DNA from: Lacibacter sp. H407
GTDB lineage: Bacteria; Bacteroidota; Bacteroidia; Chitinophagales; Chitinophagaceae
NCBI RefSeq assembly: GCF_037892605.1
Contig: NZ_JBBKTU010000001.1
Location: forward strand, 310,001 to 374,000
Length of the DNA stretch: 64,000 bases
Direction: 5' to 3'
Part shown: in pieces, positions 14,406-16,611 of the stretch
Position numbering within the stretch: position 1 is the stretch's first letter
Layout of the letters: the number at the start of each line of letters is the position of its first letter
Notes under the pieces: generated by a model
Database searches by the model: none
Told to the model about the DNA's origin: nothing
The model's input: the letters and a program-made list of their open reading frames with translations, nothing else
Translations under genes and position numbers: made by a program

Positions 14406-14675
14406 CTAAAAATTTCTTATAAAACGAACAAAAGTCCTGGTTGTCTGGCAATCTCCACCACCGATCACTTTTGTATTGCCGGGTCTGGCATCTTTTAAGG
14501 CATCGCCACAAAAAACAAGTTGATAAGTTCTCTTGCCCGCACAACTCCAATCAATACCGCTTCCCAAATAGTTTTTTTCATCAGTCACTTCCCATACCTC
14601 ACATTTTGGAGTATTTACTTTTACACAAGTAGCAAAAAAAAATGAAAGTCCGATTAATAATAAAGCCCTTTTCAT
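14406..14675 (-). CDS. Small putative lipoprotein
   Basis: 89 residues from the ATG at 14675; an upstream in-frame start would add 25 residues before the signal peptide and is less likely. MKRALLLIGLSFFFATC looks like a lipoprotein signal with the lipidated cysteine at 17, though FATC is a loose lipobox. The mature part has three more cysteines (in KCEVW, WSCAG and VFCGDA) and a fourth in GGDCQT, so two disulfides are possible in the periplasm. Family not recognised. It ends 4 bp from the convergent membrane protein gene. Its signal region contains a T9 run, a possible slippage or phase-variation site. Confidence 0.55.
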   Translation of the reverse strand: MKRALLLIGLSFFFATCVKVNTPKCEVWEVTDEKNYLGSGIDWSCAGKRTYQLVFCGDALKDARPGNTKVIGGGDCQTTRTFVRFIRNF

Positions 14676-14826
14676 ATAAGAAATTTTTAATCCATATGGC
14701 GGGATCAAAATGGCTCTATTAAAGTTAGTTAATGATGCCTGTAAATGCAAGTTCTTTACAATCCAGGGAAATGGACAGGGAACAAAAATGTATCCTCTGC
14801 TTTTTCCCTAAATTGCACCCGCAGTT

Positions 14827-16611
14827 ATGGATAAATTCATTGTTTCAGCACGGAAATACAGACCCCAAACCTTTAATACAGTTGTGGGGCAAACGCATAT
14901 CACCACCACACTCAAAAACGCCATCAGCCACAACCAGTTGGCACATGCCTTTTTGTTTTGCGGTCCGAGAGGTGTGGGCAAAACCACCTGTGCCCGTATT
15001 CTGGCAAAGACCATCAACTGCGAAAGCATTCAACCCAACGGTGAAGCATGTGATACATGTGTGAGTTGCCGCACGTTCAACGAAGGCACATCGCTCAACA
15101 TTCATGAACTCGATGCTGCCAGTAACAACTCGGTGGATGATATCCGTTCATTGATTGAGCAGGTTCGTTTTGCACCGCAGATGGGAAAATACAAAGTGTA
15201 CATCATCGATGAGGTACACATGCTTAGTTCCAGTGCCTTCAATGCATTTTTGAAAACATTGGAAGAGCCGCCCTCCTATGCCATTTTTATTTTAGCAACT
15301 ACGGAGAAACATAAAATTCTGCCCACCATTTTAAGCCGTTGCCAGATCTTCGATTTCAAACGCATCACCACCAACGATACCGTTGATCATTTGCAGGAGA
15401 TCGTTGACAAAGAAGAGATCAAAGCTGAGAAACCGGCCCTGCAGGTAATTGCTCAAAAAAGTGAAGGTTGTATGCGTGATGCACTCAGCATCATGGATAA
15501 GATCGTAAGTTTTACCAATGGCGAATTAACGTATCAGAATACATTGGAGCATCTGAATATTTTGGATGCAGATTATTTTTTCAAGTTGTTGGAAGCTATG
15601 CAGCAACAGCAATTAGCGGATGCGATGTTGTTGTTTGATGATATTAACCGCAAAGGTTTTGAAGGTGATATGGTGTTAAATGCCATGGCTGAATTCTTCC
15701 GCAACTTATTGGTGTGTAAAGATGAAAAGGTAGCCAACTTGCTGGAAGTGGTGGAAAGCTTTAAAGACAAATACACTTCTGCTTCTAAAAAAACGTCTGC
15801 TTCTTATATCATCAGTGCATTGAATGTATTGAACGAAGCAGAGATCAATTACAAACAGGCCCGTAACAAGCGCCTGCATGTTGAGTTGGCATTGATCAAA
15901 CTCACCTACCTGCAACAGGCACTCGATCTCACTGATAAAAAAAAAGTAGTTGATAAAGCAAAGGCTGTTCAGTTCCGTGCACTCAAGCCAATGGAAGTGA
16001 AGGAGCAGGCTGTAAGTACAGGGAACAAAGTTCAAGAATCAGGTACAGCGAAGTTGATCATCGAAGAACCCAAACCGAGCTACAGGGTTGAACAGCCGGC
16101 AACCTATACACAACAACCAACTACAGCAACAGCTGTTCCTAAACAAACGTCCACTACAGGTGTAAAAGGCGGATTGTCCAAACTCAGGGAAAAAATTGCA
16201 GCCGAGAGCAGCAAGACAGCCGACCAGCAAAAAGAAATGGATGCGGAGCAACTCAAAATTGCCTGGCAGGAATACATTCTCAAACTTCGCACGGCCAGCA
16301 AACATTCAGTGGTTTCCAATTTCGAAATGATGGAATGTCGCTTAAGATCGCCCCTTGATTTTGAAATTGTTTGCAACGGGAATATTCAGCTCGGTTTTCT
16401 GAAACAGGAAAAAACCGCTTTGCTCGAGCATATCCAGCATTTTTTCCATAACCCCGGCCTCAATATGCATGTTGATCTTATTGAAGCACCGGAAGATACA
16501 AATCCCGTCGAACGGCCTTTATCTACCAAAGAACAATTCATGAAAATGACGGAGAAATATCCGTTGGTAAAGGAATTGAAAGACCGCTTAGGGTTGGAAC
16601 TGGATTATTGA
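14827..16611 (+). CDS. dnaX: DNA polymerase III subunit gamma/tau
   Basis: 594 residues. Clamp-loader AAA+ marks: Walker A GPRGVGKT (46-53), zinc cysteines 65, 75, 78 and 81, Walker B IIDEVH (126-131), and the SRC sensor at 170-172. Domains I-III reach about residue 370. A lysine- and proline-rich linker follows, then a C-terminal domain (about 460-594) that in tau binds polymerase. Codons 371-373 are AAA AAA AAA, a run of nine A (15937-15945). Losing one A gives TAG at once; gaining one A, or a -1 ribosomal shift, gives TGA two codons later. A short gamma-like form of 373-375 residues is therefore predicted beside full-length tau. Confidence 0.96.
   Translation: MDKFIVSARKYRPQTFNTVVGQTHITTTLKNAISHNQLAHAFLFCGPRGVGKTTCARILAKTINCESIQPNGEACDTCVSCRTFNEGTSLNIHELDAASNNSVDDIRSLIEQVRFAPQMGKYKVYIIDEVHMLSSSAFNAFLKTLEEPPSYAIFILATTEKHKILPTILSRCQIFDFKRITTNDTVDHLQEIVDKEEIKAEKPALQVIAQKSEGCMRDALSIMDKIVSFTNGELTYQNTLEHLNILDADYFFKLLEAMQQQQLADAMLLFDDINRKGFEGDMVLNAMAEFFRNLLVCKDEKVANLLEVVESFKDKYTSASKKTSASYIISALNVLNEAEINYKQARNKRLHVELALIKLTYLQQALDLTDKKKVVDKAKAVQFRALKPMEVKEQAVSTGNKVQESGTAKLIIEEPKPSYRVEQPATYTQQPTTATAVPKQTSTTGVKGGLSKLREKIAAESSKTADQQKEMDAEQLKIAWQEYILKLRTASKHSVVSNFEMMECRLRSPLDFEIVCNGNIQLGFLKQEKTALLEHIQHFFHNPGLNMHVDLIEAPEDTNPVERPLSTKEQFMKMTEKYPLVKELKDRLGLELDY
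15937..15945 (+). promoter_or_regulatory. A9 slippage site in dnaX
   Basis: Nine consecutive A form three in-frame Lys codons at the predicted domain III/IV junction. The next bases, GTAGTTGA, put a stop just after the run in both other frames. Thermus thermophilus dnaX makes gamma by transcriptional slippage on a comparable A run, and E. coli uses ribosomal frameshifting on A-rich DNA. Use of this site here is inferred. Confidence 0.6.

Follow-up and report, generated by a model that had tools for sequence, protein, structure and literature searches.

Does a run of nine A within dnaX allow one gene to code for two forms of a replication protein, and is it then the RNA polymerase or the ribosome that slips? 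Transcriptional slippage in dnaX of Thermus thermophilus was reportedly described by Larsen et al. in 2000. The accessible text of PMC5009743 treats the routes to gamma in Thermus, Escherichia coli and Caulobacter, and slippage in T. thermophilus dnaX is dealt with there as well as in the accessible text of PMC1088944. An earlier note on the DNA studied here had pointed to such a site in dnaX of the window, by which we mean the whole stretch of 64,000 nucleotides that was analysed, and the question is therefore taken up with this gene.

The dnaX gene and its A9 run

The open reading frame at 14827-16611 of the plus strand, stop codon included, is dnaX and codes for DNA polymerase III gamma/tau with 594 amino acids. 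Its product matches NCBIfam NF011531 over residues 1-593 with 713.2 bits (cut-off 685) and is homologous to the solved gamma/tau chains of E. coli in the PDB. The clamp-loader core (14827-15927; PF13177, PF22608, and PF12169) extends to the end of domain III, which the PF12169 match places at residue 367, and codons 371-373 form an A9 run at 15937-15945, read as AAA AAA AAA GTA GTT GAT, exactly where the earlier note had located it. From 15946 to 16608 follow the tau-specific linker and the C-terminal domain, a part that is covered by NF011531, has no match to any Pfam family and would be missing in a short form.

Loss of one A from the run gives AAA AAA AAG TAG, so that the TAG at 15947-15949, which is also in frame after a +1 shift, ends a product of 373 amino acids with a computed mass of 42.2 kDa. 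Gain of one A gives AAA AAA AAA AGT AGT TGA, and here the TGA at 15951-15953, likewise in frame after a -1 shift, ends a product of 375 amino acids and 42.4 kDa (computed), compared to 67.2 kDa computed for full-length tau. The two stops thus end 4 and 8 nt past the run. Both altered readings had been predicted before, together with an end of the protein at 373-375 residues just past domain III, and both can be read from the sequence; the mass of the short product, which had been expected near 41 kDa, has to be corrected to about 42 kDa. Since the gamma chain in the solved E. coli structure 1jr3 has 373 residues, the predicted short DnaX would match a known clamp-loader core in size.

The run compared with its genomic background

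The genome to which the window belongs (4.87 Mb) contains 72 A or T runs of at least nine, 37 of them inside an open reading frame of at least 120 amino acids. An A run in some gene therefore means little alone, and the rarity of A9 in the genome, which was considered as an argument, turned out to be a weak one. The window itself holds one other run of nine, the T9 that had been mentioned for the open reading frame at 14406; it is found at 14634-14642 (A9 on the plus strand), within a small lipoprotein-like open reading frame of the minus strand (14406-14750), where it falls into the stretch that resembles a signal peptide. Elsewhere in the genome a single open reading frame of 543 amino acids, with a signal-peptide-like beginning, has an A10 and a T9 (L311:9905 and L311:9942) a short distance apart near its start.

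Two further genes of this genome that carry an A9 with close stops were used as controls, and we take them to be a ribonucleotide reductase gene and an ABC-F gene. In the putative ribonucleotide reductase gene the run (L285:2010; G000:C1 482909-482917) lies before the C-terminal end, with shifted-frame stops 7 and 12 nt off, and in the gene of the ABC-F-like ATPase (L323:2010; G000:C1 4280009-4280017) it lies in the linker that precedes the C-terminal domain, with shifted-frame stops 10 and 18 nt off. An A9 is kept in just 4 of 30 family loci of the former and 3 of 30 of the latter, the own genome included in both cases, and slippage was rejected for both genes on these grounds.

Conservation in the Chitinophagaceae

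Within the same family 117 genomes were searched, of which 116 matched and 110 loci were taken; the six matching genomes left out comprise five with weak matches only and one with a gene cut at residue 317. The family set used below also counts 110 loci, because L075, which ends before the linker, was removed and one locus from the wider search was added. A run of A9 or longer is present in dnaX of 101 of these 110 loci, whereas nine are without A9. In L002, from the one genome of the same genus that was sampled, the A9 is accompanied by a stop in each of the two shifted frames, at positions identical to those of the window gene. The comparison that the earlier note had suggested, namely whether close relatives keep the A run and its flanking stops, hence did not refute its proposal, which the data support.

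Alternatively, the run could follow from a conserved lysine-rich linker motif as a by-product, with no second product being made. KKK or KK is indeed conserved as residues in the dnaX linker, and AAA makes up 70% of the lysine codons of the family genes on average. However, among 106 family genes with a single open reading frame, 98 have at least nine consecutive A in the 50-codon linker and none has them outside it, while synonymous-codon shuffles give such a linker run in 41.4 of 106 (sd 4.3, maximum 54). Linkers with KKK are written AAA AAA AAA in 72 of 86 cases, with 33.9 (sd 4.1) expected from the lysine codons of each gene. Thirteen of the 86 end in AAG, and in 12 of these the preceding codon ends in A (GTA 10, CTA 1, TTA 1), by which nine As are restored; this bias is significant against the 72 all-AAA linkers (Fisher p 5.8e-5), and one of the 13 has A8. 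Where the linker reads KKN or KKT, A9-A10 is built from other codons. These patterns indicate that codon choice in the linker holds the length of the run and not the residues, and that the run is kept as nucleotides. The presumed ABC-F gene, of which the linker is also lysine-rich, speaks against the by-product explanation as well, as its A9 is so seldom kept.

Stops in the shifted frames

In 97 of 98 family genes a -1-frame stop ends no more than 12 nt past the A run; the figure is 41% in synonymous shuffles and 28% elsewhere in the same genes. For the +1 frame, 86% of the 98 genes have a stop that ends no farther than 30 nt from the run (shuffles 66%, other positions 46%), but within 12 nt there is no enrichment in these genes (39.8% against 39.5% in shuffles). 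The -1-frame stops are therefore held much more tightly than those of the +1 frame. It is these statistics, besides the sequence itself, on which the assignment of the TGA and the TAG of the window gene as stops of a short form is based, and the enrichment in the -1 frame is a further point that a mere lysine-rich linker leaves unaccounted for. Taken with the place of the run, the close stops and above all the retention in relatives indicate more than chance for the A9 of dnaX, as the earlier note had argued from the closed frames on both sides.

Split dnaX genes

The wider collection comprises 319 loci without duplicates (family, order, class, phylum, 80 named loci and 58 more). Left out as duplicates were L111, L112, L114, L115, L199, L201, L209 and ten of L429-L486. 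Loci from beyond the family are the best 30 of each search plus 40 picked by hand and do not form a random sample. In 57 of the 319 the zero frame closes soon past the run and a different frame stays open, at -1 in 48 and at +1 in nine, a share that is no frequency because many loci from beyond the family were chosen for a short open frame. With a profile built from 169 single-ORF tau C-termini, the tau C-terminal domain was found in the shifted frame in all 53 split genes of a 271-locus set, 45 at -1 and 8 at +1, although the match is weak in L178, L196, and L198 (E above 1e-4). The first ATG of the shifted frame lies more than 100 nt past the run in 47 of the 53; in L137 and L164 an ATG of this frame stands before the end of the run (only ATG starts were considered). 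To judge from these genes, a shift at the run is almost the only way in which the tau domain of the split relatives can be joined to the core. This is also difficult to reconcile with the A run as a by-product of lysine codons, an explanation that we regard as very improbable.

Split genes could in turn be due to errors of sequencing or assembly or to phase variation of the DNA, in which case the window gene would make tau only. Homopolymers are prone to both, and many of the loci come from draft or metagenome assemblies. However, five genomes of one genus (g157: L163 and L165-L168) are all split alike, every split gene tested has an intact tau domain in the other frame, and the conserved stops of the single-ORF genes would be left unexplained, so that such an origin can scarcely be credited.

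A FastTree tree of 270 loci, from which L181 was left out, requires a minimum of 21 switches between the single and the split layout and of 17 between presence and absence of the run. It was also considered whether split genes need a run of at least ten A. A count over rows gave a Fisher p of 1.8e-11 (2.0e-5 outside the family), but pairs that are independent on the tree gave a median p of 0.22, and the idea was dropped.

Distribution in the Bacteroidota

An A9-A13 run is present in dnaX of 262 of the 319 Bacteroidota loci of this non-random sample. In the 271-locus subset the unnamed loci carry it in 33 of 36 cases from the same order, 28 of 28 from the same class and 8 of 19 from the same phylum. 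Among the named loci of this subset it is found in all Chitinophagales (9/9), Sphingobacteriales (6/6), Cytophagales (5/5), Flavobacteriales (6/6), and Saprospirales (4/4), in 13 of 33 Bacteroidales, two truncated loci included, and in none of the 11 from Bacteroidaceae and Prevotellaceae. Pedobacter, Mucilaginibacter, Hymenobacter, Dyadobacter, Chitinophaga, and a metagenome assembly of Chryseobacterium are among the named carriers, and as these include culturable genera, the proposal is testable there. Among the 230 loci with at least seven A, the run reaches nine or more in 224 and stays at A7-A8 in six, and each of the three phases commonly has A9-A10.

Slippage in transcription or frameshifting in translation

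It is likely from these comparisons that the A9 of dnaX is a selected, programmed slippage site and that the RNA polymerase slips there. Slippage on A9 would lead to mRNAs with one or a few As above or below nine. Those with a run that is unchanged or changed by a multiple of three would give tau, with 594 amino acids or a lysine more or less, and all other run lengths would lead into the stop 4 or 8 nt past the run and thereby to a gamma-like core of 373-375 amino acids, which may vary in size by one or two lysines and would lack the C-terminal part of tau. We infer that the slip occurs in transcription and not in translation, that tau and the short form both accumulate, and that the latter serves some function in the clamp loader.

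If ribosomes underwent a programmed shift of -1 on the A run, as in E. coli, the short form would result as well. A run of nine A in phase 0 contains A_AAA_AAA, the -1-frame stops are the ones most tightly kept, and 45 of the 53 split genes require a shift of -1. Furthermore, the only lysine anticodon found in the own genome by ARAGORN is UUU (two genes, no CUU; 50 tRNA matches covered, of which a single partial one was not called), and hexamers resembling a Shine-Dalgarno (SD) sequence (5/6 match) are slightly in excess upstream of the run, with 6.7% of 224 loci against 2.8% of control windows, on a scale on which the E. coli site scored 4/6. However, the other 8 split genes require +1, and the length of the run does not depend on its phase, though a run of seven or eight A with a G after it would already contain the E. 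coli heptamer A_AAA_AAG. In the window gene this heptamer is absent in frame, its codons AAA AAA AAA GTA offering A_AAA_AAA instead. Bacteroidia ribosomes, moreover, do not recognise SD sequences according to the accessible text of PMC9976891.

A stimulating hairpin downstream of the run was rejected on the basis of the local-hairpin percentile, which averages 0.51 over 223 genes compared to 0.06 for E. coli dnaX; the window gene has -5.8 kcal/mol at percentile 0.51 of its own gene, and E. coli dnaX -19.1 kcal/mol at 0.06. Shuffle z-scores over 60-100 nt missed the E. coli control too and were therefore uninformative. Slippage of the polymerase is favoured because shifts go in both directions, run length is independent of phase, no hairpin follows the run and Bacteroidia ribosomes are blind to SD sequences, whereas the single lysine tRNA type lends it no support. 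Of the two types of slippage that the earlier note had named, the Thermus type hence fits the comparative data better than the E. coli type, and ribosomal frameshifting appears rather unlikely as the source of the short form.

Relation to known systems

As far as the accessible text of PMC1088944 and PMC5009743 goes, dnaX of T. thermophilus and that of the window share an A9 on the sense strand within a single tau open reading frame, close stops in both shifted frames and a short product without the C-terminal part of tau. They differ in that for Thermus heterogeneity of the mRNA and a 1:1 ratio are reported in these papers, while the window gene is known from sequence, and in that two lysine tRNAs, suggested in PMC5009743 as a reason for slippage in transcription, contrast with the one lysine anticodon found in the own genome. 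A further difference is that the run of the window gene would end the protein about 63% along. With dnaX of E. coli the window gene has in common that gamma would arise from the tau open reading frame by stopping past the core. It differs from the -1 shift described there, which according to the accessible text of PMC3711429 uses A_AAA_AAG, an upstream SD sequence and a hairpin, in its codons and in having no standout downstream hairpin.

The GeneTack survey (PMC3711429) gives, in its accessible text, 17 two-ORF dnaX genes from 12 genera, nine of them with ten As, out of 1106 genomes that include 20 Bacteroidetes species, and it names Chlorobi species. Its two-ORF genes have A10 between core and tau part with predicted slippage, which is the layout of the split relatives of the window gene; the window gene, in contrast, is one open reading frame without a zero-frame stop directly past the run. 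Five split dnaX genes with A10 from outside the class but the same phylum (L188, L192, L196, L197, and L198) recall the Chlorobi cases of that survey, as far as its accessible text describes them.

In the parts of the literature found, slippage in transcription of dnaX is demonstrated for Thermus, and for a few genera it is predicted. The mechanism itself is thus already known, and its breadth in Bacteroidota seems little described: among the open-access matches listed, no title or abstract deals with a class-wide dnaX slippage pattern in Bacteroidia, which may yet be in print. The breadth of the run and the exchange of single and split layouts may therefore be new. If the proposal is true, many common Bacteroidota rely on slippage of their polymerase for two forms of a replication protein, and with a conserved run and scattered losses the role of gamma is open to comparison. 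It is conceivable, though we would lean towards doubt, that slippage is the ancestral gamma/tau route of the class Bacteroidia and persisted through the at least 21 exchanges of single and split genes, with the frame of the downstream DNA nearly neutral, and that a lost run was replaced by a GGGC-loop-GCCC hairpin in Bacteroidaceae, Prevotellaceae, and kin or, in three uncultured genomes, by an in-frame UAG with the tau domain in frame.

Loci without the run

A GGGC-N3/4-GCCC hairpin stands in the dnaX linker of 17 of 54 loci without the run and in none of the 262 with it. It is found in L224, L235, L236, L251, L253, L254, L259, L262, L265, L266, L271, and L277 and also in L429, L430, L431, L433, and L434; the bases of its stem are conserved even though the amino acids that they encode differ. 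Three other loci (L248, L258, and L273) have an in-frame TAG directly past domain III in the context CA TAG ATT GCN AGG, 36-41 nt past aligned residue 355, and the tau domain follows in the same frame with E values of 1.7e-19, 1.3e-23, and 2.4e-13, respectively. The linker hairpin and the in-frame UAG, which are seen in some Bacteroidales that lack the run, may bring about by different means what the A run does, and read-through of the UAG in the three loci is possible in view of this layout. In L273 a downstream open reading frame ends in TAG, so that TAG seems to be a stop there.
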